From: Maricaulis sp.
Lineage (GTDB): Bacteria > Pseudomonadota > Alphaproteobacteria > Caulobacterales > Maricaulaceae
Assembly (NCBI RefSeq): GCF_030149425.1
Contig: NZ_JASBRQ010000002.1
Span: 62,001-126,000, forward strand
Length of the DNA stretch: 64,000 nt
Direction: 5' to 3'
The number at the start of each line of letters is the position of its first letter. Position 1 is the first letter of the stretch. The notes below the pieces were generated by a model. The model saw only the letters and a list, made by a program, of their open reading frames with translations, searched no databases and was not told the DNA's origin. Positions 25,234 through 55,577 of the stretch are shown here, piece by piece. The translations under genes and the position numbers were made by a program.

Positions 25234-25974
25234 ATGCTGTTACGCCGCCTGAGCGAACATGTGCGCACCCAGAACTGGATTGCGGTGGCGATCGATTTTG
25301 TCATCGTCCTGGTCGGTGTCCTGCTCGCCTTTCAGATCAATGCCTGGAATGAAAGCCGGTTGGAGCGAGCGGAACAGGCGGCCGCGCTGGATCGCCTGCT
25401 GTCGGAATCGGAAGAAGCCGTTGTCTATCTGCGCCGCTCTATCGCCCGGTTCGAAGAAGGCAATACGCGCCGCGTGGAACTGCTGACCCGGCTGAATGAC
25501 GATAATTGGGACGGGTTTGATAATGACGCCATGGCCCAGGCCATCGTCACCATCGGCCGCGCCCCGCCTGCGGCTCCGCCGCGCAGCGCCTATGACGAGG
25601 TTATTGCCTCCGGCCTGTTCTCAGGTATTGGCGATGCTGAGGTGCGCGATGCGATCACCGAATACTATGCATCCGTCGACTATCTCAATGGCATGTCGGT
25701 CTATATCCAGCGCCTGGCCAGCTGGGATCCGTATTGGCGCTATGACAGCACGACCGACGTGTTCGCACCGGACTTTTTCTACCAGACCCGGACCCTGGTC
25801 GATGTCGAGGCCATACGCGCCAATGCCGAATTCGCGGAAATGCTGGTACGCGGGCACCGGGTACAGATCGCTTTGACCGAGTGGTGGCAAGGCGCGCTGG
25901 AAGATGCGCAGGCCATGTGCGAAGCGCTGGCCGGGTTTTCCCAGAGCGAGTGCGAGGCGGCCGCGACAGACTAG
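25234..25974 (+). CDS. Membrane-anchored hypothetical protein (DUF6090-like)
   Basis: A 246-aa protein from ATG 25234, preceded by GAGGGA. It has a single helix near the N-terminus (AVAIDFVIVLVGVLLAFQINAW) followed directly by NESRLER and an alpha-helical domain with two late Cys (about residues 228 and 237). The helix followed by QINAWNE is characteristic of a family of uncharacterised proteins (DUF6090 and relatives). Predicted topology is a short cytoplasmic tail with a periplasmic helical domain. Its stop codon overlaps the stop of the convergent aconitase-X gene in the tetranucleotide CTAG. Function unknown. Confidence 0.65.
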   Translation: MLLRRLSEHVRTQNWIAVAIDFVIVLVGVLLAFQINAWNESRLERAEQAAALDRLLSESEEAVVYLRRSIARFEEGNTRRVELLTRLNDDNWDGFDNDAMAQAIVTIGRAPPAAPPRSAYDEVIASGLFSGIGDAEVRDAITEYYASVDYLNGMSVYIQRLASWDPYWRYDSTTDVFAPDFFYQTRTLVDVEAIRANAEFAEMLVRGHRVQIALTEWWQGALEDAQAMCEALAGFSQSECEAAATD

Positions 25975-27797
25975 GCCAGCCACTCTGGCACAGACAGCCC
26001 CGCCGCGCTGGTTCGGGCCGCCACGGCACATTCAGCCAGGCTTCCCAGACGCAGGCTGCAGCCGGACAGGCTGGGGCCGTAATGGGCATACTTGCCTGAA
26101 TTGGTCAGAATATGGCGGGCCGAGGCCGGGAAGAGCGGCCTGGAGATCGAGCACCAGCATACATCGGTTACCAGCTGCACGCCGAGCCGTTCGAGCTCGG
26201 CCCGGGTCCCGTCCTCTTCAATCTCGGCATTGACCGCCCGGCCCAGCGTCAGCATCACGCTCACCCCGTCAGCCACCGCATTGCCGTCCATCAAACGGGC
26301 AAACTGCCGGCATTCGGATGCGGACAGGTGCGGACTGCCGAGGGCCACAAGATCGACCTTGGCCGGCCCCTGGTTCAAGGCCTGCCAAGCCTGACGCAGG
26401 GCGGCCCGGTCGATCCGGTGGCGCGGCAGGGACGGGTCGTAGCTGTCACCCGCTTCCGGGGTGACACCGGCCATGTGCAGCATGGGCGCGCCGGATGTGG
26501 TCCCAAAGGCCGCACACACTGCCTTGAGGTCATCGGGTCCGGGATGATGCTCGGCCAGACCGTTGAGCAGCGGGATGCGGTCCGGGGCCAGCTGACCGGC
26601 AAGCCAGCCAAGCAGGGGCCAGACGCTCTCATCGGCTTGCTCCGGCAGGTCGACATCCAGAACCAGGCGGGCCTGCCGGTGGGCATCGAGATACACGCCG
26701 GACGCCGGAGCCCGCCCGGTGACGGCAATCATCAGATCGAAAAAGTCTGCATGCTTGTTGCTGCGCGCACCCAGCACGCTGTTGGCATAGATTACGGCGT
26801 TGGATTCTGACCAGCCGATCACCTCCCCCTGCCGCGGTTTGTCGCTGAGGAGATAAGGCGCACAGGTAAAGCTCGGCCGCGCGCCCATGGCCAGATAGGC
26901 TTCGGCCAGTGCGCTGGCCGGTTCGCCAAAATCGGCCGGGACGCCTTGGGCGCGCCAATGCGGCAGGTCGACGGAAATCGCATTCATGGTGGTCGGAACG
27001 CGGACCCTCGCCCCGCGCGCCTGCATGGCCCGGGCAAAGGTCAGATTGGCCTCGCTGGCATAAATGCAGCCATCAATATGAACGCGGGAGACATCAATCA
27101 AAGTCCGGGCGCCCTGCAAGACCGCCAGGATGCACATCGTCTCCATGGCCAGTTGAGCCGCTTCGCCCTCGCCTCCCGCCAGCATGTTTTCATCGGCAGC
27201 AGACAGGCTCAGACCAGACCGGTCCAGGGTTCCCAACTCAAATGTGAGATCACCGGCCGTGAGATGAGCGCCGGTCAGCTGCGCGTCTGTTTCGCAGGAC
27301 AGCTTCTGATAGTCCTCAGCGCCGAGCCGGATCACGGCAATGCGCGCGTCAAACATGATGCGGGCGATAATGGCCCCCAGGCTCAGGACGTCCTCGGGCT
27401 CGCGAAACACCAGCGCGGCCGGGGCCTTGCCCGCCAGGGCGAGGCTCAGCAGGACGGCACTTCCGGTACACGACCCGCGCGAGGTCGGCATCATCAGAAC
27501 CTTGCCGGCTATCGACTGTCCGCATTGCGGGTGGTGCTGATCGAGTATGGTCCCGCTTTGCGCATCCACCCCGCCCCAAAAGCTCAGCCCTTCCTCGCAA
27601 TACAGGATAGGCCCGGACAGATCGGCGGCCTGGATCAGGGTGTTGGGATGCTGCGGATCGAAAGCGCCCTGGCTCAAACGGGTCACCTTTGCGGAGGGGA
27701 GAGAGACCCTCTCCTTATCCGCGTTTAACCCGGCCGGTGCAAATACCGCTGCCGTCGAAAAAGGCGCAGACCCGGCCCGGCTTGCCGGGACAGGCAT
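25971..27797 (-). CDS. Aconitase X, fused small + large subunits (cis-3-hydroxy-L-proline dehydratase-like)
   Basis: A 608-aa protein that joins a swivel (small-subunit) domain at about 35-165 with the AcnX catalytic domain at about 180-600. The swivel domain shows EEGLSFWGGVDAQSG, GQSIAGKVLMMPTSRGSCTGS. The catalytic domain shows RVHIDGCIYAS, SNAVIYANSVLGARSNKHADFFDL, and DVCWCSISRPLFP near the C-terminus. Characterised fused bacterial members dehydrate cis-3-hydroxy-L-proline; the archaeal split form is phosphomevalonate dehydratase. The first 30 residues fit poorly, so the true start may be downstream. It follows pepF by 24 bp on the same strand, with no hydroxyproline genes in view. Confidence 0.82.
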   Translation of the reverse strand: MPVPASRAGSAPFSTAAVFAPAGLNADKERVSLPSAKVTRLSQGAFDPQHPNTLIQAADLSGPILYCEEGLSFWGGVDAQSGTILDQHHPQCGQSIAGKVLMMPTSRGSCTGSAVLLSLALAGKAPAALVFREPEDVLSLGAIIARIMFDARIAVIRLGAEDYQKLSCETDAQLTGAHLTAGDLTFELGTLDRSGLSLSAADENMLAGGEGEAAQLAMETMCILAVLQGARTLIDVSRVHIDGCIYASEANLTFARAMQARGARVRVPTTMNAISVDLPHWRAQGVPADFGEPASALAEAYLAMGARPSFTCAPYLLSDKPRQGEVIGWSESNAVIYANSVLGARSNKHADFFDLMIAVTGRAPASGVYLDAHRQARLVLDVDLPEQADESVWPLLGWLAGQLAPDRIPLLNGLAEHHPGPDDLKAVCAAFGTTSGAPMLHMAGVTPEAGDSYDPSLPRHRIDRAALRQAWQALNQGPAKVDLVALGSPHLSASECRQFARLMDGNAVADGVSVMLTLGRAVNAEIEEDGTRAELERLGVQLVTDVCWCSISRPLFPASARHILTNSGKYAHYGPSLSGCSLRLGSLAECAVAARTSAAGLSVPEWLA

Positions 27798-27821
27798 GCG
27801 CCTTCATCGAGATGTCGCGCC

Positions 27822-29717
27822 CTAGTTTTCGCGGGCGTCGAGAATGGCTTCGATCTCGTCCATCACGGCGACCATGCGGTCGATGACGGCGTTATAGGGA
27901 TCCGCCGTCGTCATATCGAGGCCCGCATCACGCAGGATCTCGACCGGATAATCCGAACCGCCGGCCTTGAGGAAATTGAGATAGGTCTCGCGCGCCTCAT
28001 CCCCACCGGTCTCCAGCTGGTCGACGAAATAGGCCGCCCCGGCGATCGAGGTCGCATACTGGTAGACATAGAAGTTGAAATAGAAGTGCGGGATATAGGC
28101 CCACTCGATCATCTCACGCTCGGTGATCTCCAACACGCCTTCCTCATGCCCATGATAACGGCGCAGGATTTCACCGTAGATCTCGGTCATGCGCGGGCCG
28201 GTCAGAGCCTCGCCGCGTTCGACGGCCTCGTGAATGGCAACTTCAAACTCCGAGAACATGACCTGGCGGAAGAAAGTGCCGCGCATCTGCTCGAGGGCGT
28301 AGCCGAGATAGAAAAGCCGTTCCTCATCGCTTTCGGCCTGTTCGAGCATGTGCTCCTGCAGCAGCAATTCCTGGGCAATGGCTGCGATCTCGGTGGTGAA
28401 GATCGAGAAATTGGACAACTCGTAAGGCTGGTTCGCATTGGTCAGCACCTGGTGCATCGCATGACCCCACTCATGGGCGTAGGTCGAGGCGCTGTTATAA
28501 TTGTCCAGGTGATTGAGCAGGATGAGCGGGTGGACGTCATAGGCGCCGCCGGACATGTAGGCACCGGAGGATTTGCCCGGCTGCGGATAGACATGCATCC
28601 AGCGCTCGCTCGATGCCTGCGCGAAGGTCTGCGAGAACTCCTCGCCCAGCACATCCATGGACGCCAGAACGTGTTCGCGGGTCTCCTCGACCGGGAAGGT
28701 CAGATCGGTTTCAACCAGGGCCGGATAGATGTCGTGATAGCCCTGGTCCTCAATTCCGAGCATGCGGCCGCGCAGCTCGAAATAGCGGTGCAGGACGTCG
28801 ATCCGGTCATTGGTGACCTCGACCAGCGTGCGATAGACCTCCTCCGGGATGTTATCGCCGGACAGGAAGTATTGCAGCGTATTGTCGTAATTGCGCGCCC
28901 GGGCCATGGCGACATTGGCCTGGACCTCACCGTTGAGATTGGCGCCGAACGTGCTCTCATACTGTGACCAGGTGCCCCAGAAAGCGTCGAACACCGCTTC
29001 ACGGTCTTCGCGGTCCGGGTCTTCGCGGTGCAGGGTATAGCCGGCCGGGGTAAGATGGGCCTCGGTGCCGTCGCTGAGTGTGATGGTGGGCCAGTCGATC
29101 TCGGCATTGGCCAGCAGACCGCGGGCATTTTGCGGCGCCGACAGGGCATTACCCATCAGCGAGAGAACCTCTTCGGCTTCCGGGGTGAGGACATGTTCCG
29201 CCTGGCGCAGCGTGTTGCGCAAGCCGAGCGCGTGCTTCTCCAGCCCCTCCTGCTCAGCGATGAACTGCTCGATCCGCTCGGCGCCGATCTCGACAATTTC
29301 CGGCGCCACAAAGCTGCCGGCGGCACTGGCCAGACCAAACATGGCCGACAGGCGGCCGACCATGACCTGGCCATCCGGGTCACTCAGATCGGTATTGCGC
29401 TGGTTGGAGGCATAGGTCCAAAGCCGCGAAGCCTCCTTGAACAATGCCGACTGCGCATCGAGCGCCTCGAGCAGGATCTCCGAGCTCTCGCCAAGACGGC
29501 CCTGATAAGCGGTGATGCCGTCGATTTCGCCCTGGAGGCGCTCAACCTCGGCCTCCCAGTCCGCCCGGGTCGCGTAGAACGGGGTCAGGTCCCAGACATA
29601 GCGCTCGTCAACCGCCTCCCCGGCGTCCTGCGCCAGCGCCGGAGCGCTCATGGCGGTCAGCGCCAGCGCGCTGGCGGTGATCAAATGCATTGCGGTTTGG
29701 CGAAGTCCTCGCTTCAT
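27822..29717 (-). CDS. pepF: Exported oligoendopeptidase F (M3B family)
   Basis: A 631-aa zinc peptidase. I chose ATG 29717 (MKRGLRQTAMHL) because AGAAGG lies seven bases upstream; in-frame codons up to 29882 are non-homologous. A signal peptide ends near PALAQ, unlike the cytosolic PepF of Firmicutes. The N-terminal helical domain contains WDLTPFYATRADWEAE. The active site is YAHEWGHAMHQ (about residues 412-420), with the third ligand Glu in the following helix (TTEIAAIAQELL). It cleaves short oligopeptides, here in the periplasm. The fused aconitase-X gene follows and is probably co-transcribed. Confidence 0.9.
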   Translation of the reverse strand: MKRGLRQTAMHLITASALALTAMSAPALAQDAGEAVDERYVWDLTPFYATRADWEAEVERLQGEIDGITAYQGRLGESSEILLEALDAQSALFKEASRLWTYASNQRNTDLSDPDGQVMVGRLSAMFGLASAAGSFVAPEIVEIGAERIEQFIAEQEGLEKHALGLRNTLRQAEHVLTPEAEEVLSLMGNALSAPQNARGLLANAEIDWPTITLSDGTEAHLTPAGYTLHREDPDREDREAVFDAFWGTWSQYESTFGANLNGEVQANVAMARARNYDNTLQYFLSGDNIPEEVYRTLVEVTNDRIDVLHRYFELRGRMLGIEDQGYHDIYPALVETDLTFPVEETREHVLASMDVLGEEFSQTFAQASSERWMHVYPQPGKSSGAYMSGGAYDVHPLILLNHLDNYNSASTYAHEWGHAMHQVLTNANQPYELSNFSIFTTEIAAIAQELLLQEHMLEQAESDEERLFYLGYALEQMRGTFFRQVMFSEFEVAIHEAVERGEALTGPRMTEIYGEILRRYHGHEEGVLEITEREMIEWAYIPHFYFNFYVYQYATSIAGAAYFVDQLETGGDEARETYLNFLKAGGSDYPVEILRDAGLDMTTADPYNAVIDRMVAVMDEIEAILDAREN

Positions 29718-29905
29718 GGTCATGCCTTCTCTTGCAGGTGCCCGAGCACCCATCCCCTCAACTGAATTATGATGTCCTGCGCGGTCATCCCGCACGCAGT
29801 CCGGCGTGTGCAGCTTGTTACAGGTCCCGTCGAAACCGGACATTTCCCTGCCATTGAATTTCATTAACAAAGCGACATGCATGGGGACGCTTGTTGGTCG
29901 TTAGC

Positions 29906-29922
29906 ATGTTACAGTATAACAT
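29906..29922. promoter_or_regulatory. Zur-type operator (zinc-responsive)
   Basis: The inverted repeat ATGTTA-N5-TAACAT has perfect arms. The 17-mer differs from the Zur consensus core ATGTTATAnTATAACAT at only one defined position. It lies 52 bp upstream of the start of the COG0523 gene at 29974, where it would overlap the promoter, and 189 bp from the pepF start. The gene content downstream (COG0523 GTPase and DUF1826) independently points to Zur control. Confidence 0.72.
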
Positions 29923-29973
29923 TGCATCAACTCCCGGGCGGCACCACCCCGCCACAGCAGAAAGCGCAATACC

Positions 29974-31203
29974 ATGCCCTCTCCCCGCGATAAGCGCCTC
30001 CCGGTGACCGTGCTCTCCGGCTTTCTTGGCGCCGGAAAAACCACCCTGCTCAACCGCGTACTCAATAATCGCGAGGGCATCCGGGTCGCGGTGATCGTCA
30101 ACGACATGTCCGAGGTCAATATCGACGCCGATCTTGTCCGGGCCGGAACGGAATTGAGCCGCACCGACGAGACGCTCGTGGAAATGTCCAATGGCTGTAT
30201 CTGCTGCACCTTGCGCGACGATTTGCTCGCAGAGGTCCGCCGCCTCGCGGATGAAAAACGATTTGATTACTTGCTGATCGAATCCACTGGCATTTCGGAA
30301 CCTTTGCCCGTGGCCGCGACCTTCGATTTCCGCTCAGAGGAAGGCGATAGCCTGTCCGATGTCGCGCGGATCGACACCATGGTCACCGTGGTTGATGCGG
30401 TAAATCTGCTGAGGGATTTTTCCAGCCACGACTTTCTCAAGGACCGCGGCGAGTCGCTCGGCGATGAGGACGACCGGACCTTGGTGCACCTGCTGACAGA
30501 TCAGATCGAGTTCGCGGATGTCATCGTCCTCAATAAGGTCGATGATGCCCGCCCCGACCAGGTTGATGCAGCGCGCAAGATCATTCGCAGCTTGAATGCC
30601 GATGTCCGTATTCTCGAGGCCAACTATTCCGACGTGCCGGCGGAGGACATCCTGAATACCGGCCTGTTCGACTTCGAAAAAGCCCATGAACATCCGATGT
30701 GGGCCAAGGAGCTTTATGGCTATGAGGATCACACGCCTGAAACCGAGGAATATGGCGTCACCTCCTATGTCTACCGCGCCCGCCGCCCCTTCCTGCCGGA
30801 ACGCATCCACGCGATCTTGAACGGCGCTCTGCCCGGCGTCATCCGCGCCAAGGGGCACTTCTGGATGGCGACACGCCCGGAATGGGTCGCGGAGTATTCC
30901 ATGGCGGGAGCGCTTTCCAGTGTGTCCCCGATCGGTACCTGGTGGGCCAGCGTACCGCCGGACCAATGGCCGGAAGGACCGGCCGTCGACGCCTATCTGG
31001 CGGATCATTGGCAAGAGCCTTTTGGTGATCGCCGCCAGGAACTGGTCTTTATTGGTGCCGGGATCGACTGGCCTGAGCTAAAAGCGCGTCTGGACGCCGC
31101 GCTTGTGCCTGAAATCCAAGCCTACTCACCCCATGATATCCCGCAAATGGCAGATCCGTTTCCGCGCTGGCAACGAGCCGAGGAAGCGGAACCGGCCGCA
31201 TGA
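29974..31203 (+). CDS. COG0523/CobW-family GTPase, ZigA-type zinc metallochaperone
   Basis: A 409-aa G3E GTPase. The Walker A motif [10 protein letters not shown] is at residues 15-24. The metal-binding GCICC (CxCC) is near 74-78, Walker B/switch ESTGISEP near 110, and the guanine-specificity motif NKVD near 188; a CobW C-terminal domain starts after about 270. COG0523 proteins of the Zur-regulated branch deliver zinc to client proteins under zinc limitation. A Zur-like site lies in the promoter, and a DUF1826 gene overlaps the 3' end, the same pairing described for Zur-regulated loci in other proteobacteria. A cobalamin role is unlikely, as no cobalamin genes are nearby. Confidence 0.88.
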
Positions 31204-31856
31204 ACCTGATAGCCCAGAACGCGTTCAACGCCGACCTCGGCACACCGATACGGCGCGTTCAACACCTGAGCGGACTGACGGCCCTCGCCAATCCCGGCGC
31301 AGAGGCGGTTATCTGGGACCGGCCCATCCCGCCCGCCATGGCCCGCGCTCTGGAAGGCTGGCCGAAGGCAAAGGCCGCCGATATCCGCCTGGTGCTCAAT
31401 CTGAGCGAGATTGAAGCGGCCGCGGTCCGGGTATTCAATACGTGGGGCGGGCTGGAGCCAATGGCCCGCGACTGGCTGGCAAAGGACATTGCCGGGCTTG
31501 CCACCCAGCTGGCGCAAACGCTGGCTGCCTCGCGCGTGCACCTGCGTTTCGAACATGTCCGTGACGACGCCTGCCGCCGCTTCCACAAAGACAATGTCCG
31601 GGCCCGGCTAATCTGCACCTATCGCGGACCGGGCACACAGTTCGGCTATACCGAGCGCCTGGCAGACGAGCCGGCTCGTTTCGACACCGTGGCAACCGGA
31701 TCGCCGATCTTCCTGCGCGGCAAAACCTGGCCGTCGAGCCAGGTCGGGCATGTCGTGCACCGTTCGCCCCCGGTTCAGGCTGACGGCGTAAGCCGACTCG
31801 TGATTGTGATCGATGAGGCAAAACCGGAACTGCCACACGGCCTTCAGACGCGCTGA
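31200..31856 (+). CDS. DUF1826 family protein
   Basis: A 218-aa protein whose ATG overlaps the stop of the COG0523 GTPase gene by four bases, implying coupled translation. The C-terminal half has the family pattern [23 protein letters not shown] and later [10 protein letters not shown], with His and Asp residues that look like a cupin/dioxygenase-type metal site. DUF1826 genes repeatedly sit beside zinc-chaperone COG0523 genes in Zur regulons, so a role in zinc-limited growth is likely. The biochemical activity is unknown. No signal peptide; cytoplasmic. Confidence 0.83.
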
Positions 31857-31870
31857 GCCAAAGCCCAGGG

Positions 31871-32698
31871 CTAGAGTCCGAACTTCCCCAGATCCCCAAG
31901 GACGTCATCCCGATCAAGCGGTGGGTGATCCAGAACAGGCAGGAGATCGGTTCCGAAATCCTCAACCGGATCGTGCTGCGTCATATCCATTCGGCGCTCG
32001 ATTTGCGGCCGCAGTGGAGGCCAGCGGTGGCCGCAATCATCCACCAAGGTGTGGATCATATCCATGCTCACACGGACATCATCATCGCCCAGCTCAGCCC
32101 TTGATCGCGCATCGACGCGTGCCAGCACGTCGAGGACATTCTCTTCGGTGACGACCCGGCAGAGCTCATATTGCAAGTCTACGAGCTGATAGGGCCCATG
32201 GCCCTGAACCGCTTCCGGCAGGCTGCGCAAATGCCGGTCGATAAAGTCGCTGACCTTTATGGCCTCAGGAAAAACCAGGGCGGAATGCGAACTGGAGCTG
32301 AAACTGTCCGCCAGTGCCTGCCCGGCCTTTGCCAGGCTGGCTCCGGCCTCCGGCGCTTCAAGGCTCAGCGCTACTGATCCGGCACGCTCGTCCAACCCGG
32401 CGAGTGCTGCAAATCCTTGTGCATCCTCTGACCGGTCGAAGCGGAACTCGACATCACCTGACGCTAGTTTCAACCGGCAATACCAGAGCATCGGAGCCAG
32501 CGGATAGCGCAACTCGACCCAGCGCGGTCCGTTATCCAGCCGCACCGAATCCACCGCCAGACGATGATCGCTCCAGATCGGTTGGAGCAAGCGCGCCAGC
32601 CGGCGCTTTTGCTCGCCACCATCCTGCTCAAACAGGACCTGCAACATCTGGCGATCGCGCTCGCTATACTGGCGCTTATAAGGATAGGCAGAGGACAT
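31871..32698 (-). CDS. Hypothetical cytoplasmic protein
   Basis: A 275-aa protein from ATG 32698 (MSSAYPYKRQ); a GTG at 32749 in frame is possible, and neither has a strong Shine-Dalgarno. It is acidic overall, with no signal peptide, membrane helix or catalytic motif. The N-terminal part (about 10-120) looks like an alpha/beta domain, and the end is rich in Asp and Pro (HPPLDRDDVLGDLG). I do not recognise the family. It converges on the DUF1826 gene with a 14-bp gap, and its start is 78 bp from the end of the upstream secreted-protein gene on the same strand. Confidence 0.55.
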   Translation of the reverse strand: MSSAYPYKRQYSERDRQMLQVLFEQDGGEQKRRLARLLQPIWSDHRLAVDSVRLDNGPRWVELRYPLAPMLWYCRLKLASGDVEFRFDRSEDAQGFAALAGLDERAGSVALSLEAPEAGASLAKAGQALADSFSSSSHSALVFPEAIKVSDFIDRHLRSLPEAVQGHGPYQLVDLQYELCRVVTEENVLDVLARVDARSRAELGDDDVRVSMDMIHTLVDDCGHRWPPLRPQIERRMDMTQHDPVEDFGTDLLPVLDHPPLDRDDVLGDLGKFGL

Positions 32699-32776
32699 CG
32701 GATCTCGGGCGAAGACGGGATGGAAATACCGGCAAGGCCAGCCTCCCACGCCCGCAGCTGCACCGCAAGCCGAGCG

Positions 32777-33691
32777 CTACTCGATCCCGTATTGAGCTAT
32801 AATGCGCGCCCGCGTCTCATCATCCGCGAGCGGGATGGTCGAGCCCTGGCTGCCGAAGAACTGATAGCCCTCCGTCGCGCCATAAATCCGGTCGAGCAGC
32901 ATTTTTAGCGCCAGGTCATTGCTGAGCTCCCCCTCGCGCACAGCAGCGTGCACATGGGGCAGATAGCGGCGCATATAGGGAATGTTGGAATGCTGGATCA
33001 CCAGGAACATGGCGATCTCCAGCTCTTCTCCGACCATGGAGCGACCGATATAGCGGCCATGACGCTCGAACAGGGCATCGATCCGGGCCTGGTTCTGAGC
33101 ATCCAGCGCCTGTTGGGCCTCGTTGAGATCAGGGCGATACATAGCATCATCAAGCGAAATCTGGTGGATTTCCCGGACCAGGTCCGCATCAAAATCGTGA
33201 TCGGCGATATGGGCCTCGACATCAAACGGGGTCACCGCAGCAAGGATTTGCGGGCAGTCATCGACAAAGGCGAAAAAGACCTCCGGAATGGCCGCTTCAA
33301 ACGGATGCGGCGCGGCGTCGATATAGCCGCAGATCGCCGCCGGATCGCTTTCAAAGGCTAGGCTGAAGGCCAGCCCGGTATTCGCCGCCGGCTCGCCCAG
33401 CGCATAAAAGGCCAGGGCGAGGTTCCAATAGTCGACGTGAACAAAATTGTCCGGATTTCCGCTCACGGCGGCCTTGGTCTGATTGAGATAGAACAGGCCA
33501 CGCGCAAACACGTCCTCGGCAACATCATCCCGGCGCACCGGTTGATAGGCGAGCACAGTCTCGTGGAAATTCTCAGCCGTGAGAACCGGCGTCGCCTGAC
33601 CCTGCAGCGCATGGGCTGCGGCGGTACCAGGAACGGCCAGGGCCGAGAGCCCGGCGCCCAGAAAACACGCCTTGAAAATTTCACTCATCAT
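32777..33691 (-). CDS. Secreted DUF6624-like protein
   Basis: A 304-aa protein with a signal peptide (LSALAVPGTAAAHA). The C-terminal part contains EIAMFLVIQHSN, MRRYLPHVHAAVREGELS and GYQFFGSQGS, the sequence pattern of DUF6624 domains, where the late segment is usually YGTQ-like. The N-terminal half has paired helices (VFARGLFYLNQTKAAVS, NLALAFYALGEPAA) and two Cys. It starts at ATG 33691 (GGGGCGATG). Function unknown; periplasmic by prediction. Confidence 0.65.
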   Translation of the reverse strand: MMSEIFKACFLGAGLSALAVPGTAAAHALQGQATPVLTAENFHETVLAYQPVRRDDVAEDVFARGLFYLNQTKAAVSGNPDNFVHVDYWNLALAFYALGEPAANTGLAFSLAFESDPAAICGYIDAAPHPFEAAIPEVFFAFVDDCPQILAAVTPFDVEAHIADHDFDADLVREIHQISLDDAMYRPDLNEAQQALDAQNQARIDALFERHGRYIGRSMVGEELEIAMFLVIQHSNIPYMRRYLPHVHAAVREGELSNDLALKMLLDRIYGATEGYQFFGSQGSTIPLADDETRARIIAQYGIE

Positions 33692-33910
33692 CGCCCCTGC
33701 CCTTCCACAAACAGATCAAAACCGGCGGCCTTATAGGCAGCGCCTCCGGGGAGTTCATCTTAAAACGCGGTCACGAACTTAAAGGCCGTTCATGATGCCG
33801 CGAGACGCGCCTGGAACCGCCCTAGCCCGCCGCTCCGGCTTGTTGCATCGCGCATATAAGGCTATGCCCGACAGACAGCGCCCGTGCGGTTGGGCGCAAA
33901 GGGGGACATT

Positions 33911-36211
33911 ATGCGTTTTCAGCTTATGGCACCGGCAGCTTTCGGAATGGCGGCTCTGGGGGCGAGCAGCTGCGCAGACGCGGCGCCGCATCACCAGCAT
34001 GGACATGGCGCCAGCGACAGCGAGGGTATTGCCGGCAGCGTCACCGAGGCGGCTCCGGAGTTTACTCACACTTTTGAGCTGGAAGCGGGCCAAGTCGTGA
34101 CCCTGACGACCCAGTCGGATGAGAATTTCGATACCGTTCTGACGCTGAGCGGGCTGGGCGGCAAACCGATCACGCAAAACGACGATGCCGATCCGACAAC
34201 GCTGCAATCCCTCATCCTTTTCGCCGTTCCGCAAAGCGGCAGCTATACGGCCTCTGTTACCGGTTATGGCGGCGCGACGGGCAATTTCGAGCTCTTCATT
34301 GAAGAAGGTGTCGATTTCGGCCTCTCCGACGAGGCGGTCATCCTGGAAGAAGGCGTAACCCGCTTCAGTGGACGCGAGCTGACCCGCGACGTCGAGGTCC
34401 AGCTGAATGAAGGCGACATCCTGGTCGCCTCGACCGAAGCGCTCAGCCCCGAGCTCGACACCACGCTGACCCTGTTCGATGCCTCCGGTGAGGTTATCGC
34501 CATGAATGATGATCGCGGCGATGGCACGCTGAACTCGCAGATCATCTTCCTGGTCGAGACCGCCGGTGAATATACCGTGCAGGCGGGCAGCTATAGCGGG
34601 CGGGATATGGGCGAGCTCTTCCTCTCCGTCGCCACCGATGCCAATGCCGAACTGCCGTTTGATTTCACTGCCCTTGATGGCGAGATGATCGCGACCGAGA
34701 CCGGCCGCGTCGACGACAACACCCCGGTCTATCGCCGCGACATCACTATTGCCGAAGGTCAGACGCTTTATGCCTATGCCGACCGCGCCGATGGCGATCT
34801 CGACCCGGTGCTACGCCTGCTCGGCCCGGACGGGCTGCCGGTGGCGATGAATGATGATCGTGGCGACGGCTCGCTCAATTCCGCTTTCGCCTACACCGCC
34901 CCGGCGACCGGCGATTACATCGTCGAAGTCGACCGCTATAGCGGCAGCGGCTCGTCCGGCGGCTTCAGCCTGACCCTTTCCTGGGTCGAGGCGTCCGTGG
35001 TGGAGGTCCTGCAGGGCCTGCGCGAATCCATTGTCACGCTGAGCGGCGACCCGCAGAGTTTCCGGACCGACGATTTCGTCGTCAATTACACCCTGGACGG
35101 TGAAGACAGCACCACCCTCGCCTATGCCCAGAGTGTCGGCGACGCCCTGCAGCATGCGCTGGATGAACAGCTCGGCCGTATGGGCTGGCGCGAACCGGTG
35201 CGCGATGCCGATGGCCTCTACCGCGCCTTTGTCGCCGACGCCAATGGCTCCATGGGCGTGACCTATCCGGTCGAGACCGTGTTCGACAATCCGCACACCA
35301 GCGATATCCGCGAGCCGCTCGCCTCGCGCACGGTCTTTGTCGTCGAGAATGATTTCGAGGGCTTTGATGAAAAGACGGCGCCGGTGGACAGCCTGATGCG
35401 GGCCACCGCGACCCATGAATTCGCCCATGTGGTCCAGTTTGGCTATGATTCAGAGGAAGGCCTGGACTGGCTTTACGAGTCCACAGCGTCCTGGATCGAG
35501 ACCGTTACCGTTGGTCATCACCAGGATGCCACGGATTATGTCGAGACGGACTATCAGCGCCCGGATCTGTGCTGGACGACGACACAGGGCGGGTTCGACT
35601 ATTCCCAGTGGACGCTATTGCAATCCCTCGCCGATGTTCATGGCGAGCGCATCGTCGTCCGTATCTGGGAAAACGCGGTCGACCATGACGGTTTCGACAC
35701 CATGGCGGTCACCCTGGGTGAGGTCGACACGACCATTCCCGATGCGCTGCGCCGCTGGCGGGCCCAGAATTTTGCCATGGCCTATGAACTCGCCCCGCTG
35801 TTTGATCGCCCCGTAGCGCTCAATCGCAGCTTCAACACGGCGGAAAGCTGGACCTCGAAACAAGGCCCGGAACAGCTCGGCGCGAATTATTTCGAACTAG
35901 CTCTGGATGGCCGTCACACCATCTCGCTGAACGGCAATAATGCCCTTGAACTGGTTGCCCTGGGCTATCGCGACGGCACGGTTGATGTCATCGAACTGGG
36001 CCAGTCCGGTGTGGTTGATCCGGCGGCCTACGAGCATCTCGGCCTGATGGTCTTCAACCCCGTCATTCCCGAGGCGCCGGGCGTGTGCTCCTCCGGCATG
36101 TATACGCTGGATATCAGCGCCACCTCCGAAGCAGCGACTCAGCCAGCAGCTTATCAATTTGAGGCGCCGCACTTTACCGCCCCGACGCCGGTCAGCGAGG
36201 CCATCGAATAG
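33911..36211 (+). CDS. Secreted metallopeptidase with N-terminal PPC-like repeats
   Basis: A 766-aa protein from ATG 33911 (SD GGGGGA). After a signal peptide come three consecutive beta-sandwich repeats (about 35-135, 140-235, 250-350). Each has a FDTVLTLSG/LDTTLTLFD/LDPVLRLLG strand, an (A/N)DD acidic turn and a GxYxVxxxxYSG strand, typical of bacterial pre-peptidase C-terminal (PPC) domains. The catalytic domain follows: ATHEFAHVVQFGYD (about 500-513), then WLYESTASWIE (about 520-530). This is HExxH with a downstream Glu ligand, as in gluzincins. Domain order is reversed compared with most PPC proteases. The exact family is uncertain. Confidence 0.72.
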   Translation: MRFQLMAPAAFGMAALGASSCADAAPHHQHGHGASDSEGIAGSVTEAAPEFTHTFELEAGQVVTLTTQSDENFDTVLTLSGLGGKPITQNDDADPTTLQSLILFAVPQSGSYTASVTGYGGATGNFELFIEEGVDFGLSDEAVILEEGVTRFSGRELTRDVEVQLNEGDILVASTEALSPELDTTLTLFDASGEVIAMNDDRGDGTLNSQIIFLVETAGEYTVQAGSYSGRDMGELFLSVATDANAELPFDFTALDGEMIATETGRVDDNTPVYRRDITIAEGQTLYAYADRADGDLDPVLRLLGPDGLPVAMNDDRGDGSLNSAFAYTAPATGDYIVEVDRYSGSGSSGGFSLTLSWVEASVVEVLQGLRESIVTLSGDPQSFRTDDFVVNYTLDGEDSTTLAYAQSVGDALQHALDEQLGRMGWREPVRDADGLYRAFVADANGSMGVTYPVETVFDNPHTSDIREPLASRTVFVVENDFEGFDEKTAPVDSLMRATATHEFAHVVQFGYDSEEGLDWLYESTASWIETVTVGHHQDATDYVETDYQRPDLCWTTTQGGFDYSQWTLLQSLADVHGERIVVRIWENAVDHDGFDTMAVTLGEVDTTIPDALRRWRAQNFAMAYELAPLFDRPVALNRSFNTAESWTSKQGPEQLGANYFELALDGRHTISLNGNNALELVALGYRDGTVDVIELGQSGVVDPAAYEHLGLMVFNPVIPEAPGVCSSGMYTLDISATSEAATQPAAYQFEAPHFTAPTPVSEAIE

Positions 36212-36312: not shown

Positions 36313-38520
36313 CTAGCCGTCAGCGTCCGTATCGAACCCGCGATTGCGCAGCAGCGGCTCAACGCTCGGCTCGCGGCCGCGGAAGCCGACATAGGCGTCC
36401 ATGGCCGGCAGGGTATCACCAGCCGAGAAAACGCTGTCGAGCAGTTTCTGCGCCAGTTCCGGATCGAAGATATCGCCCGCTTCCTCAAACGCCGCGAACC
36501 CGTCATTGTCCAGAACGCCGGCCCAGAGATAGCTGTAATAGCCGGCGGAATAGCCCTCTCCTGCGAAGCTGTGCAGGAAGTGCGGGGAGCGGTGGCGCAT
36601 CGGGATGGCGTCGAGGTTTTGACGGCTGCTCAGCACCTCCTCCTCGAAGGCATGGATATCGATATCGCCCGGCTCGGTGTTGAGATGGTAGGCCATATCG
36701 ACAAAGCCGGAATTGAGGAACTCAACCGTGGCAAAGCCCTGGTTGAAGGTCTGGGCTTCCAGCACGCGCTCGAGCAGCGCCGGCCTCATCGGCTCACCGG
36801 TCTCATAGTGAAGGGCAAAGCGCTCGAGCACTTCAGGCTGTTCCAGCCAGTGTTCATAGATCTGCGCCGGGAATTCCACGAAGTCGCGGTCAACCGCGGT
36901 CCCGGCCAGGCTGGGATACTCGGTATTGGACAACAGACCGTGCAGACCGTGGCCGAATTCGTGGAATAGCGTGCTCGCATCGATGAAGGACAAGAGCGCA
37001 GGCTCGCCATCGGCCGGCTTGTTGTAATTACAGTTATTGATGATGATCGGGATATCACCGCTAATCCCGTTCTGGGCGCGGAAGCTGGACATCCAGGCGC
37101 CGCCGCGCTTGCCCGGGCGAGCAAAGTAATCACCGTAGAACAGGCCGATCACCTCGCCTTCCGTATTGGTCATCTCCCAAACGCGGACGTCCGGATGATA
37201 GACTTCCATATCGGTGCGCTCGGTGAAGCTGACACCGAACAGGCGCTCGGCGACGTAGAACTGGGCCTCGATCATATTGTCGAGCTGGAGGTAGGATTTC
37301 ACCTCGCTCGGGTCGAGATCATAGCGCTCGGCGCGCACCTGTTCGGTGTAATAGCGCCAGTCCCACGGCATGACGCCATGGTCGAGACCGGCCGCGGCGA
37401 TACGCGCTTCGATATCGGCCTGTTCTTCCAGCGCGCGTTCACGGGCCGGCCACCAGACCTGCTCCATCAGCGAGGTTGCCGCCAGCGGTGTGCCAGCCAT
37501 GGTGCCACCGGTGCGGTAATGCGCGAAGGTCTCATAGCCCAGAAGGTTGGCCATCTCGAGACGCAGGCGAAGAATGTCGCGGATCGTATCGTGATTGTTA
37601 TTGGCGTTCTCGTTGTCACCGCGGCTGGTCCAGGCCCGCCATGCCTGTTCGCGCAGCTCGCGATTGGGCGAGGTTTGCAGGAAGGGCTCTACGCTGGAGC
37701 GCGCCAGGGTAACGACATGGCCCTCTAGGCCGCGGTCAGCAGCAGCACCGGCAGCCGCGGACACGACGAAGTCCGGCAGGCCTTCCAGGTCCTCCGCCTC
37801 CAGTGCCATGGTCCAGCTTTCACGGTCCGCCTGCTCGTTCTGGGCGAATTGCGTGTAAAGACCCGCCAGGCCCGCACGGACGTCGGCGAAACGCTGACGG
37901 TCATCGCCCTCCAGCTGGGCGCCGGCGCGGACGAAGTCATGGTGGGTAACTTCCAGCAAACGAAGTTGCTGCGGTTCCAGACCCAGGCTTTCGCGCTGCT
38001 GGTACAGGCTGTCGATGCGGGCAAAGAGATCGGCATTGAGCGTGATCGAAGCGGAGTGCGCGGCCATGCGCGGGCTCATCTCGCGCTGGATGGCGCGGAT
38101 TTCGTCATTACTGGCCGAGCTGGCCAGGTTGAAGAACACGCTGCTGATACGGCCGAGCTGGGCGCCGGACTGCTCCATGGCCAGCATCGTGTTGGCAAAG
38201 CTTGCCGGCTGCGGATTGCTGGCGATGGCTTCGATCTCGGCCGTGTGCGCCGCCAGGGCTACTTCGAAGGCCGGCAGGAAATGGGCCTCCTCAATGGCAT
38301 CGAAGGGCGGCGCCTGGTGCGGAGTATTCCAGGCCGACAGCAGCGGGTTATCCGATGCAGGCACGGCAGCATCGGCAACTTGCGTGGTAGCGGTCCCGGC
38401 CTCGCTGACGGTTTCACTGGCAGCGTCCCCGGCGGTTTCAGGTGTCTCCCCGGCCTGCGGAGAACATGCAGCAAGAAGAAGAGCGGTGCTGGCAGCGCTC
38501 AAAAGCATGGCGGCTTTCAT
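36313..38520 (-). CDS. M3-family peptidyl-dipeptidase/oligopeptidase lipoprotein (Dcp-like)
   Basis: A 735-aa zinc peptidase with a lipobox (LLLAACSP) and an Ala/Thr/Glu-rich linker. The fold begins at WNTPHQAPPFDAIEEAHFLPAFE (in part; about residue 65). The active site is LFHEFGHGLHGLL (about 515-527), with the downstream Glu ligand region VDRDFVEFPAQIYEHW. The C-terminus, DNDGFAAFEEAGDIFDPELAQKLLDSV (in part), is typical of Dcp/OpdA-type M3A enzymes. It would degrade peptides at the periplasmic membrane surface. A Zur-like palindrome sits at 38545-38556, only 25 bp upstream of the start codon, suggesting repression by zinc. Confidence 0.92.
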   Translation of the reverse strand: MKAAMLLSAASTALLLAACSPQAGETPETAGDAASETVSEAGTATTQVADAAVPASDNPLLSAWNTPHQAPPFDAIEEAHFLPAFEVALAAHTAEIEAIASNPQPASFANTMLAMEQSGAQLGRISSVFFNLASSASNDEIRAIQREMSPRMAAHSASITLNADLFARIDSLYQQRESLGLEPQQLRLLEVTHHDFVRAGAQLEGDDRQRFADVRAGLAGLYTQFAQNEQADRESWTMALEAEDLEGLPDFVVSAAAGAAADRGLEGHVVTLARSSVEPFLQTSPNRELREQAWRAWTSRGDNENANNNHDTIRDILRLRLEMANLLGYETFAHYRTGGTMAGTPLAATSLMEQVWWPARERALEEQADIEARIAAAGLDHGVMPWDWRYYTEQVRAERYDLDPSEVKSYLQLDNMIEAQFYVAERLFGVSFTERTDMEVYHPDVRVWEMTNTEGEVIGLFYGDYFARPGKRGGAWMSSFRAQNGISGDIPIIINNCNYNKPADGEPALLSFIDASTLFHEFGHGLHGLLSNTEYPSLAGTAVDRDFVEFPAQIYEHWLEQPEVLERFALHYETGEPMRPALLERVLEAQTFNQGFATVEFLNSGFVDMAYHLNTEPGDIDIHAFEEEVLSSRQNLDAIPMRHRSPHFLHSFAGEGYSAGYYSYLWAGVLDNDGFAAFEEAGDIFDPELAQKLLDSVFSAGDTLPAMDAYVGFRGREPSVEPLLRNRGFDTDADG

Positions 38521-38544: not shown

Positions 38545-38561
38545 ATGTTATAACATAACGC
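38545..38561. promoter_or_regulatory. Zur-like palindrome upstream of M3 peptidase
   Basis: ATGTTATAACAT (38545-38556) is a perfect 12-bp palindrome. Read as a 17-mer it agrees with the Zur core ATGTTATAnTATAACAT at 13 of 16 defined positions. It lies 25 bp upstream of the start codon. It shares ATGTTA/TAACAT arms with the site at 29906-29922 but with a different spacing, so control by a different regulator cannot be excluded. Confidence 0.5.
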
Positions 38562-52196: not shown

Positions 52197-55100
52197 CTAC
52201 TCCCAGTAATACGCCTCGCGCGCTTCATCGCCGGTGATGACTTCATTCATCGTTACCGGGTCGTAGAGGCGGCCATTGAGCATCACATAGGCGATCTCAT
52301 CGGTCTGGAAGATGTCCTCGAGCGGGTTCTCGCGCAGGACGACGAGGTCGGCCAGCTTACCTGCTTCCAGCGTGCCGATATCGTCGATAAAGCCCAAATG
52401 GCGGGCCGGAGCGACGGTGGCTGTGGTCAGCACCTCGAGCGGCGTCATGCCGCCGCGGGCGAAGGACCACATCTCCCAGTGCGCCGCGAGGCCCTGTTGC
52501 TGGCCGTGGGCACCGATCGAGACGTGAATGCCGCGCTGGGCCAGGAGGCGCGCGGAAGCGGCCGAGTTGGCGTCAGCGAAATTGCTCTCCGGCGCCGTGG
52601 TCCGGCGCACGGTGGAGGGCAGCAGCACATGCGGCGGCACATGCTCGGACAGGATCGGATGCTCCCAGACATTCATCGCCTGACGCCAGAACGGGTCACC
52701 GGCGAGGCCGCCATAGGTCACCGTCAGCGTCGGGGTCAGGGCCACTTCGGTCTGCTCCCACATGCTCAGCACGTCTTCATACAGCGTGGAGACCGGGATG
52801 TTGTGCTCCATGGACGTATTGCCATCGATGATCATCGACATGTCCATATGGTAGTTGGAGCCCCCCTCCGATGCGGTGATCAGATTGGCTTCCATCGCGG
52901 CATAGGTGACCTGCTGGCGCTGTTCCCGGCGCGGCTGGTTGTAGTTCTTGATACCATGAGCACCCTGCGCCTGCAGGCGGAAGACGTGTTCACGGGCATC
53001 ATCCTCACCATCAATCGCCGCATGGAAACCCGGAGCCCGGGCGCCGTAGACGATCTCGCCGGTGGAATAGGTCCGCGGCTGCAATTGCACGCCGGCGCGC
53101 TGGTATTCCGCCGCCGGGAAGATCGACGCGGCCGAGCTGGACGGGTCAAAGATGGTGGTCACACCGAGCGCGAGATGCGCCAGGGTCGACCAGTTCTGCT
53201 GCGGGATAATGCCGTCGCTGGCCTGCGGGCCATGCGCGTGGGCATCAATGAAGCCCGGCGTAATGGTGTGACCGGACATGTCGGAGACCACAGCGCCATC
53301 CGGGATCTCGACAGAACCGGCCTCGCCGATCGCGACAATGCGATTGCCGTCGATGACGATGACGCCATTCTCGATGACGCCGCCATCCTCGCCCGCCATG
53401 GTAATCAGACGCGCACCGGTGATCGCGACCATGCCGTCCGGACGGTCGGTCTCGATCGTCATCGCCAGCGAGATGCCCTCGCCCGGCTCCGGCGGGCTGT
53501 AAGCCTCGTCCTCATCAGCATCCGGATTGGGACGGATCTGCTCAATCGTGGCCGAGAACAGTTCAGCACCCATGGTCCAGTTGACGCGATTACCGCCTTC
53601 CGACCAGTGGATATCGGTACCGCCATTGCCCGACAGCTCTACCACCGGCAGGGCACCGGTATTGTTGGAAACCGACAGGTTTTGCGGGCCCACCGGCATC
53701 GGCATGACCCAGGCGTCGTAGTTTTCGCGGAAGGCCAGATGACGCTCGTCCGGCGAGACATGGAATTCGCCGGTCATGCCGCCATTGGCATGCACACGCT
53801 CGTCAAAACCGTCCAGATTGACCGAGTAGAGCTCCAGGCCCGGCGCCCGCCGGGTCAGGAAAATGCGGTCATTGGAAGCGCCGAAATGCGGGTTGGAGCC
53901 ACTGTCTGCGACTTCACGCATCTCGCCACCGCGGGCGGAAACCGTGAAGATACCGGTGGTTTCAGACCATTCATTCGAGGTCAGGAAACCACCGCCGTCT
54001 TTTTCAAACACGACCGTATTGCCATCCGGCGAGAAGCGCGGACGGCGGTAGATACCCGGCTCACGGGTCAGCGTCCGCTCGCCGCGGCCGGCTGCGGTCA
54101 CGCTCCGGATCGAGCCGAGGTCCTGGTCATCCCAGGTAGCAAAGACGATGCGGCTGCCATCCCGGCTCCAGGAGGCGAACAATTCGCGCCGGTCCGAGCT
54201 GTCACGGGTCAGACGGCGCGGTTCGCCGCCATCGGTGTCCATGATGTAGAGCTTGCCGAGATTTTCAAACACGACCTGGTCGCCATCGGGCGAGACCGAG
54301 GTAAAGCGCGGCATGCGCGTCTCGAACGTGTCCGGGGCGACCGGCACCGCCGGACGAACGGGATCGATCACTTCACGCGTATCGGTCACTTCGAACGGGA
54401 TATTGGTGACTTCCTCGGTCTCGATATCGATACGGTGGATACCGCCGCCGGACCAGAACACGATGGAGCCGCTGTCCGGTGTCCAGTCCATGTTCGGATA
54501 CATGCCGACAACGCCCCAGGTTTCCTGGTTGTCGCGGTCGAGATTATCATAGATGCGGCGGGTCTCGCCGGAGCGCAGATCCTTGATATAGAGGCCGGAC
54601 TGCATCTCGACACGGCGCACGAAGGCAATATAGCGCCCGTCCGGAGACGGTGCGGCGCGCACGGCACCGCCGGCGCCATCAACGGCTGTATCGATCTCGC
54701 CGGTGACCATGTCATAGCGGCGGATATTGAACAGGTCGCCGTTGGAATCGTCCGCATAGGTAAAGGTGTTCCCCGGGCTCACAGCGCGGGTGTAATAGAT
54801 ATAGCGGCCATCGGCGGAGAAGATCGGCTCGCCCTGCTCTTTCTGGTATTGCGGGTTGGGACGCTCCACCAGCGCAGAACCGCTACCGCCCAGCACGTGG
54901 TAGAGCCAGATCTCGCCAGTACCGGCCGAGCGCGATGTGGTGAAGTGCTTGCGCGCCGCGATATAGCGGCCATCCGGCGACCAGGTCGGGTTGTTGAGAA
55001 GGCGGAAGTTTTCCTGCGTCACCTGGCGGGCATTCTCGCCATCCACATCCATGACCCAGATATTGTCCCCGCCCCCGCGATCCGAGGTGAAGGCAATCTG

Positions 55101-55442
55101 CGAGCCGTCCGGAGAAAAGCGCGGCTGGATCTCCCAAGCGAGGCCGGACGCGATATTGGTCGCTTCGCCGCCGCTGATCGGCATGGTGTAGATGTCACCC
55201 ATGAGGTCGAAAGCAATGGTCTCACCGTCCGGGCTGACATCGACCGACATCCAGGTGCCTTCGGTGACATTGAAGTCGATTTCCCGGGTTTCCATCGGCG
55301 GGTTGGACACGTCCCAACCTTCCGGCGCTGTTTCTTCCACTTCGGCCTCAGCCTCGGCATCGGCATCGGCTTCCTGGAAGGCCCAGCCCGGTGCAGACGC
55401 CAGAATCGTCGACGCCGTCAGCGCCGCAATAAATCGTTTCAT
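52197..55442 (-). CDS. Secreted TolB/WD40-type beta-propeller plus amidohydrolase
   Basis: A 1081-aa exported protein. After a signal peptide (TASTILASAPGWA) and an acidic linker, residues about 60-640 form repeated propeller blades (SVDVSPDGETIAF, PRFSPDGSQIAFTSDRGG, PTWSPDGRYIAA, PRFSPDGNTVVF). The C-terminal amidohydrolase domain (about 680-1075) shows TPGFIDAHAHG with the HxH metal motif, KNYNQP around the bridging Lys, SEGGSNYHMDM, and the late GTLEAGKLADLVVLRENP. It probably hydrolyses a peptide-like or cyclic amide substrate, the propeller acting as a gate. A promoter-region palindrome (55467-55484) and a weak Zur-like site (55560-55577) lie upstream. Confidence 0.88.
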   Translation of the reverse strand: MKRFIAALTASTILASAPGWAFQEADADAEAEAEVEETAPEGWDVSNPPMETREIDFNVTEGTWMSVDVSPDGETIAFDLMGDIYTMPISGGEATNIASGLAWEIQPRFSPDGSQIAFTSDRGGGDNIWVMDVDGENARQVTQENFRLLNNPTWSPDGRYIAARKHFTTSRSAGTGEIWLYHVLGGSGSALVERPNPQYQKEQGEPIFSADGRYIYYTRAVSPGNTFTYADDSNGDLFNIRRYDMVTGEIDTAVDGAGGAVRAAPSPDGRYIAFVRRVEMQSGLYIKDLRSGETRRIYDNLDRDNQETWGVVGMYPNMDWTPDSGSIVFWSGGGIHRIDIETEEVTNIPFEVTDTREVIDPVRPAVPVAPDTFETRMPRFTSVSPDGDQVVFENLGKLYIMDTDGGEPRRLTRDSSDRRELFASWSRDGSRIVFATWDDQDLGSIRSVTAAGRGERTLTREPGIYRRPRFSPDGNTVVFEKDGGGFLTSNEWSETTGIFTVSARGGEMREVADSGSNPHFGASNDRIFLTRRAPGLELYSVNLDGFDERVHANGGMTGEFHVSPDERHLAFRENYDAWVMPMPVGPQNLSVSNNTGALPVVELSGNGGTDIHWSEGGNRVNWTMGAELFSATIEQIRPNPDADEDEAYSPPEPGEGISLAMTIETDRPDGMVAITGARLITMAGEDGGVIENGVIVIDGNRIVAIGEAGSVEIPDGAVVSDMSGHTITPGFIDAHAHGPQASDGIIPQQNWSTLAHLALGVTTIFDPSSSAASIFPAAEYQRAGVQLQPRTYSTGEIVYGARAPGFHAAIDGEDDAREHVFRLQAQGAHGIKNYNQPRREQRQQVTYAAMEANLITASEGGSNYHMDMSMIIDGNTSMEHNIPVSTLYEDVLSMWEQTEVALTPTLTVTYGGLAGDPFWRQAMNVWEHPILSEHVPPHVLLPSTVRRTTAPESNFADANSAASARLLAQRGIHVSIGAHGQQQGLAAHWEMWSFARGGMTPLEVLTTATVAPARHLGFIDDIGTLEAGKLADLVVLRENPLEDIFQTDEIAYVMLNGRLYDPVTMNEVITGDEAREAYYWE

Positions 55443-55559: not shown

Positions 55560-55577
55560 GTTATGTTATTTCGTAAC
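55560..55577. promoter_or_regulatory. Weak Zur-like site upstream of amidohydrolase
   Basis: GTTATGTTATTTCGTAAC matches an extended GTTATGTTATAACATAAC palindrome at 15 of 18 positions but fits the classical 17-bp Zur core at only 11 of 16. It lies 118 bp from the start codon. Tentative. Confidence 0.25.

Follow-up and report, generated by a model that had tools for sequence, protein, structure and literature searches.

Our analysis suggests that zigA and the DUF1826 gene that follows it in Maricaulis sp. form a Zur-repressed zinc starvation operon and that the DUF1826 protein is an Fe(II)/2-oxoglutarate (2OG) oxygenase, a joint reading that we consider likely to be correct. The case for it is built on the anatomy of the locus, a palindrome and its conservation, the genomic linkage of the two genes, the invariance of four residues in DUF1826 (three predicted iron ligands and an arginine), and the predicted fold of that protein. 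As a Zur-controlled GTPase-DUF1826 operon the locus would be of a known kind, and this part of the reading is supported by sequence comparison; the assignment of DUF1826 as an oxygenase, with an added invariant cysteine, is the new element here. The features of the locus are listed below, numbered within the window, by which we mean the whole stretch of 64,000 nucleotides that was analyzed.

27822 to 29723, minus strand: gene for a PepF-type M3 oligopeptidase, divergent from zigA, with a probably exported product (we set the start at 29723; the longest ORF begins at 29882)
29724 to 29973, no strand: intergenic region common to pepF and zigA, 250 bp, aligned with two Maricaulis relatives
29906 to 29922, no strand: Zur-box-like palindrome ATGTTACAGTATAACAT between pepF and zigA, 0 mismatches to ATGTTA-N5-TAACAT
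29974 to 31203, plus strand: ZigA-type COG0523/cobW GTPase, 409 aa, from its ORF, profile matches, and motifs
31200 to 31856, plus strand: 218-aa DUF1826 protein (PF08856), probably an Fe(II)/2OG oxygenase, with a double-stranded beta-helix as its predicted fold
31572 to 31592, plus strand: C125-x3-H129-x-D131, the first and second predicted iron ligands plus the invariant Cys
31758 to 31772, plus strand: H187-R-S-P-P, with the third predicted iron ligand, on strand 185-188
31794 to 31796, plus strand: R199, the Arg predicted to bind 2-oxoglutarate, first residue of the final core strand (199-206)

A conserved Zur-box-like palindrome lies upstream of zigA

The palindrome lies 51 bp upstream of zigA and 182 bp from the pepF start. 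As the first-pass annotation of this DNA had proposed, the promoter region carries ATGTTA-N5-TAACAT without a single mismatch, and the site is indeed one position away from ATGTTATANTATAACAT, which we take to be the Zur consensus. From the base composition of the window, 0.019 exact copies would be expected per genome. A search of the whole assembly for ATGTTANNNTATAACAT with up to two mismatches gave matches at five places, and the only one with zero mismatches was that at 29906 to 29922. We located the exact core GTTA-N5-TAAC at 6 sites in the 3.31-Mb assembly, versus 27 for a reversed control pattern. Within the window, 8 matches to ATGTTA-N5-TAACAT with up to three mismatches were found versus 4.55 expected by shuffling, a count so near chance that only the exact match is informative, and the weak matches were not used. 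The site also fits exactly the GTTA-5N-TAAC pattern given in the available text of a paper on Caulobacter (PMC4176598). Scans of positions 29700 to 29990 for a sigma-70 consensus promoter and a terminator gave no match, and neither did an Rfam scan of window positions 27000 to 33000.

The pepF-zigA-DUF1826 arrangement is shared with the two Maricaulis relatives (L049 and L050), which carry ACGTTATATTATAACGT and ATGTTATATTATAACGT, respectively, at the equivalent position, the rest of the intergenic region having diverged. Across 80 DUF1826 loci (this set, like the genus and phylum locus sets, was taken from the best matches listed), we counted 61 sites with up to two mismatches in 381 kb upstream of DUF1826 versus 7 in 361 kb downstream; letter-shuffled upstream sequence, which preserves base composition only, gave an expectation of 5.4. 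Counted by locus, such a site is present upstream at 46 of 80 loci (34 have none) and downstream at 6 of 80. Within 400 bp before zigA, it is present at 22 of the 61 loci where this stretch could be examined and absent from the other 39. Overall, in these sequence sets, the candidate Zur box is conserved in relatives and enriched upstream of DUF1826.

A candidate Zur regulon in the Maricaulis genome

The first-pass proposal depended on the presence of a Zur gene in the genome. Two Fur family genes were found in the assembly, and one of them (C84; L009:7293-7718) encodes a protein for which Zur is the best NCBIfam match. This provides a candidate regulator; at 120 bits, 47 below the curated cutoff of 167, the name itself stays putative. 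The TonB receptor encoded divergently from the Zur-like gene has ZnuD as its best match (345.8 bits; cutoff, 950), and GTGTAATATTATAACGT, three mismatches from the palindrome, lies between the two genes (L009:5074-7721). One of the exact cores (L010/L013) is flanked on one side by a ZrgA gene accompanied by ABC transporter genes and on the other by a MerC gene in divergent orientation. A search of the assembly for ZnuA (PF01297) gave no match and one for ZrgA did, so ZrgA may carry zinc uptake in this organism. Other exact cores are less convincing than that between ZrgA and MerC: one lies before an ArsR-like gene, named by eye (L012), one inside the start region of a gene (L014), and two at window positions 38547 and 55565. 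In sum, the predicted Zur regulon of this genome is coherent but small.

The two cores within the window have neighbors of some interest. That at 38547 to 38559 is about 25 bp upstream of the start of a Dcp-type M3 peptidase gene (36313 to 38520, minus strand; 649.3 bits, cutoff 944), a position from which the regulator might control a second peptidase. That at 55565 to 55577 is about 120 bp upstream of a gene encoding a 1,081-aa protein with TolB-propeller and amidohydrolase matches (52197 to 55442, minus strand).

The ZigA-type GTPase and its linkage to DUF1826

The GTPase carries the motifs GFLGAGKT (residues 16 to 23), CICC (75 to 78), and NKVD (187 to 190), and its profile scores (182.7 bits for PF02492, cobW, and 74.9 bits for PF07683) place it in the COG0523/CobW family. 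It matches the NCBIfam ZigA model (NF038288) over its full length at 582.7 bits, 17 below the curated cutoff of 600, and we therefore call it ZigA-type and do not file it as an NF038288 equivalog. It resembles ZigA of Acinetobacter baumannii in this full-length match, the P-loop, and the CxCC motif, and it differs in falling short of the cutoff and in being partnered with DUF1826 and pepF. The earlier description of a CxCC-bearing COG0523 GTPase gene overlapped by a DUF1826 gene agrees with what we found: zigA comes first, and the two genes overlap by 4 bp.

Among the matches listed for 385 genomes of the class, DUF1826 was present in 54, ZigA (E ≤ 1e-100) in 49, and both in 36 (Fisher P = 2e-26, kinship not corrected for). 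In 26 of the 36 genomes with both genes, no more than 600 bp separated the two matches. Each was also found alone, DUF1826 without ZigA in 18 of 54 genomes and ZigA without DUF1826 in 13 of 49, so neither needs the other. In the phylum, DUF1826 was found in 47 of 398 genomes (among the matches listed). Across the 80 DUF1826 loci, a zigA-type gene scoring above 150 bits is present at 63, and plasmid records bearing the zigA-DUF1826 pair exist. The neighbors of DUF1826 were read at 16 loci, 13 of which have no adjacent ZigA-type gene. DUF1826 follows ZnuA, with a FUR family gene opposite, at L054 (both family-tested), and it follows a TonB receptor at L074 (family-tested) and L127 (by eye). It precedes MerC at L051 (family-tested) and at L057, L074, and L127 (by eye), a threonyl-tRNA synthetase-like gene lies about 2 kb before it at L073 (family-tested) and L064 (by eye), and a GTP cyclohydrolase I gene is nearby at L083. 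At other loci, L075, L076, and L118 among them, no such neighbor was recognized. The presence of zinc genes beside DUF1826 at loci without zigA indicates that DUF1826 tracks zinc genes and not ZigA alone.

The two partners have diverged to different extents. Among 500 sampled pairs from 61 loci, median identity was 57% for DUF1826 versus 83% for ZigA, and DUF1826 was the lower of the two in 497. Between the window and L049, DUF1826 is 43% identical and ZigA 85%; with L050 included, the window DUF1826 stands at 43% against 85 to 89% for its partner, though the active-site residues are constant.

Pairing of the GTPase with DUF1826 had been described as known from zinc regulons of other proteobacteria, and the literature, as far as its text was available, bears this out. 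In a zinc study of Pseudomonas, the table gives PA5534 57.5 and PA5535 46.1, which we read as fold changes (PMC4542158). The PA5536-PA5534 unit of P. aeruginosa (dksA2, zigA [PA5535], and DUF1826 [PA5534]) is like the Maricaulis locus in combining ZigA with DUF1826 and is Zur regulated there according to the text available; it differs in that here no dksA2 lies between the site and zigA and a divergent pepF is found at the promoter region. In excerpts from other papers, PA5534 is listed as a DUF1826 protein of unknown function (PMC9431628), PA5534 and PA5535 are annotated as metallochaperones whose functions are unknown (PMC13083405), and the unit is counted as dksA2 and COG0523 genes (PMC10393844). 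The accessible portion of Haas 2009 mentions DUF1826 a single time, where the legend of a figure deals with Zur-regulated COG0523 clusters, and that of a Francisella paper has a DUF1826 gene among five from RNA-seq in Zur work (PMC5786701). The Zur regulon of Caulobacter crescentus (the COG0523 pair zrpW-zrpX and TonB receptors) shares with Maricaulis the GTTA-5N-TAAC pattern and a COG0523 gene, in the text available (PMC4176598). In contrast to the Maricaulis locus, PF08856 is present in 0 of 14 control genomes, Caulobacter vibrioides included.

DUF1826 is predicted to adopt an Fe(II)/2OG oxygenase fold

The DUF1826 ORF matches PF08856 at 148.5 bits, above the gathering cutoff of 22. All 144 DUF1826 sequences compared share residues C125, H129, D131, R136, G143, G174, H187, R188, S189, P190, and R199; the set is composed of the window protein, those of 29 and 34 loci of the phylum, and those of 80 further loci, from the best matches listed. 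The set holds duplicates (by sequence, L161 is the L049 gene and L163 the L050 gene), and short or broken matches (e.g., G022, G096, G334, and G752) stand outside the count. The HxD motif is followed 56 residues on by the distal His and, 12 residues after that His, by the Arg. In the Fe(II)/2OG superfamily, the pattern is HxD...H with an Arg on the last strand, in such spacing and strand placement. The first-pass annotation had seen a His/Asp pattern in the C-terminal half of DUF1826 and guessed at a metal site; H129, D131, and H187 are invariant throughout, together with R199, and the site guessed at can now be read as probably that of an Fe(II)/2OG oxygenase. dN/dS values of 0.07 to 0.42 in the 12 close DUF1826 pairs computed suggest purifying selection and hence a working gene.

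In an AlphaFold2 model of the window protein (73 sequences; pLDDT, 91.4; pTM, 0.88), strand 185-188 carries H187, strand 199-206 begins with R199, and H129 and D131 fall between strands of the core. A Foldseek search of the PDB with this model gave 110 matches at E ≤ 0.001; of the best 50, 48 were superfamily oxygenases (by title or known membership) and the remaining 2 were chains of 3pl0, whose title is uninformative; the best E value was 1.9e-6, with a probability of 1.00. Consistent with this result, a second AlphaFold model, built for the L127 protein (34% identity with that of the window; 41 sequences; pLDDT, 87.3; pTM, 0.85), retrieved superfamily members in 49 of the best 50 PDB rows, the other being 3pl0. 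The PDB matches of the L127 model include ACC oxidase, an enzyme that works without 2-oxoglutarate. TM-scores to the listed oxygenases were modest for both models (0.21 to 0.56). The lowest E value of any fold search, 1.6e-10, was to a Harvfovirus protein in BFVD (A0A3G5A5D1; TM, 0.65/0.59), which is like DUF1826 in fold, is 13% identical to it, and has no function given. The predicted models thus display the double-stranded beta-helix of the superfamily, and the HxD...H triad with a basic last-strand residue is present in 144 of 144 sequences, by strand positions in the model. Plant DAO (6kun and 6kwa), HrmJ (9dqp), and the Pseudomonas putida prolyl hydroxylase (4j25) are alike in predicted fold, HxD...H, and last-strand Arg; DUF1826 differs from them in its extra invariant C125 and HRSP and has no sequence similarity to the PF13640-type sets tested.

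Evidence for a 2OG relationship at the sequence level failed. No 2OG family was among the Pfam matches (E ≤ 10) of 73 DUF1826 members, a PDB sequence search with two DUF1826 profiles returned no solved oxygenase, and four hhalign pairings against three PF13640-type alignments, of 7, 4, and 9 sequences only, gave no link (probability ≤ 0.41%). The oxygenase claim accordingly rests on the predicted fold and the motif, and on that footing DUF1826 is probably an Fe(II)/2OG oxygenase. We found no paper assigning it as such, in a literature search outside which most subscription journals and preprints fall; a full-text search for PF08856 found no paper, and papers on an oxygenase, dioxygenase, or hydroxylase together with Zur or COG0523 did not overlap with those on DUF1826. 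As a separate observation, PF13640 itself (2OG-FeII_Oxy_3) has no match in the Maricaulis assembly and 1 to 8 matches in each of the 18 other genomes of the genus, which could reflect assembly gaps or real loss.

Other readings of DUF1826 and the place of pepF

The invariant Cys125, four residues before H129 in all 144 sequences, suggests another use of the same cluster. C-x3-H-x-D...H could hold zinc, DUF1826 is linked to zinc genes, and PA5534 has been proposed, in the available part of one paper, as a possible Zn-sparing paralogue or Zn chaperone (PMC11761036). DUF1826 might then keep the oxygenase fold as a nonenzyme, its Cys/His/Asp/His cluster binding zinc or another metal so that it serves as a store, chaperone, or sensor beside ZigA. 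We consider this unlikely: R199, R136, G143, G174, and HRSP are also invariant, a degree of conservation beyond what a storage site would be expected to require, and the best 50 PDB rows are almost all oxygenases for both models. Less likely still is that DUF1826 is a direct metal client of ZigA, with the GTPase loading or protecting the metal site of the oxygenase, like other G3E family proteins. The zigA-DUF1826 order with its 4-bp overlap, the adjacency in 26 of the 36 genomes holding both, and a passage in the accessible portion of Haas et al. count in favor of such a relationship, but ZigA is absent from 18 of 54 DUF1826 genomes, its NCBIfam name describes a zinc, not an iron, metallochaperone, and the faster divergence of DUF1826 (57% versus 83%) is unlike that of a tight obligate pair. 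The available text of the Francisella paper ties the DUF1826 domain to zinc-dependent succinylglutamate desuccinylases (PMC5786701), a relationship that we find hardly credible: the predicted fold matches oxygenases in the best 50 PDB rows, and we rejected the candidate on finding no such family in the Pfam matches of the 73 members (E ≤ 10). The oxygenase reading of DUF1826 remains the one that we prefer, and the question that follows is whether the peptidase gene on the other side of the palindrome belongs to the same unit.

The divergent peptidase is PepF, scoring 506.7 bits against TIGR00181 (cutoff, 490.55) and carrying the HEWGH motif. Of the earlier description of a divergent exported zinc peptidase, the enzyme and its orientation stand, and export is probable from an N terminus, starting at 29723, that on visual inspection resembles a signal peptide. 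Among the matches listed for the genus (19 genomes), 3 genomes have PepF at E ≤ 1e-100, the same three as DUF1826, and in all three Maricaulis genomes pepF and DUF1826 flank zigA as a divergent unit. Across the 80 DUF1826 loci, a PepF match was found at 2, both in Maricaulis. We had taken pepF for an accidental neighbor on that count and withdrew this as a firm claim after the genus search, because PepF is present in exactly the three DUF1826 genomes; the co-occurrence lends some weight to the mention of pepF in the first-pass annotation. The immediate outer neighbors in the window are unlike those of both relatives, which share flagellin-side genes. A homologue of window positions 33884 to 36211 (52.5% identity) was found further downstream in L198 when 18 kb of each was compared, so the three genomes may have retained a single old locus. 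Sequence comparison would thus allow pepF-zigA-DUF1826 to be either a functional unit or such an old locus. If the former, the palindrome might also serve pepF, and the probably exported M3 metallopeptidase would act together with zigA-DUF1826 in a zinc starvation unit of three genes. The shared distribution in 3 of 19 congeners, the differing outer neighbors, and the exact core about 25 bp before the start of the second M3 peptidase gene of the window all speak for this arrangement, and the confinement of PepF to 2 of 80 loci, the distance of the site from pepF (182 bp, versus 51 bp for zigA), and the homologue in L198 speak against it, leaving it possible but doubtful. Separately, the gene beside pepF (25971 to 27797, minus strand) encodes a single-chain aconitase X with a swivel domain, and downstream of DUF1826 lies a 292-aa ORF (31871 to 32749, minus strand) for which a Pfam search at E ≤ 0.1 gave nothing.

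Conclusions

In the mechanism that we favor, a fall in cytoplasmic zinc would cause Zur to leave the site at 29906 to 29922, allowing zigA-DUF1826 to be transcribed. ZigA, a COG0523 GTPase, would then allocate scarce zinc to client proteins. In DUF1826, H129, D131, and H187 would hold iron and R199 would anchor 2-oxoglutarate, and the enzyme may contribute to zinc sparing by oxidizing a protein side chain or a small metabolite. We infer the binding of Zur at this operon, as well as the metal, the co-substrate, and the catalysis, from the site, the invariant residues, and the predicted fold. A bolder version, which we regard as very unlikely, is that DUF1826 is a zinc-antagonized oxygenase: Cys125 would let zinc silence the iron site, so that the enzyme would work only when zinc is scarce, modifying parts of the zinc proteome while ZigA helps to sort the metals. 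Were this true, a single conserved module of proteobacteria would bring together metal sensing, zinc sparing, and the chemistry of iron.

DUF1826, a gene without an assigned function, is tied to zinc shortage in the available text of a Pseudomonas study (PMC4542158). From its predicted fold and invariant active site it gains a candidate activity that can be tested, oxidation dependent on iron and 2-oxoglutarate. If our reading is right, the response to zinc starvation would include an iron-dependent oxidation step, which no paper that we found describes for that response, and the partner of ZigA would become an approachable question.
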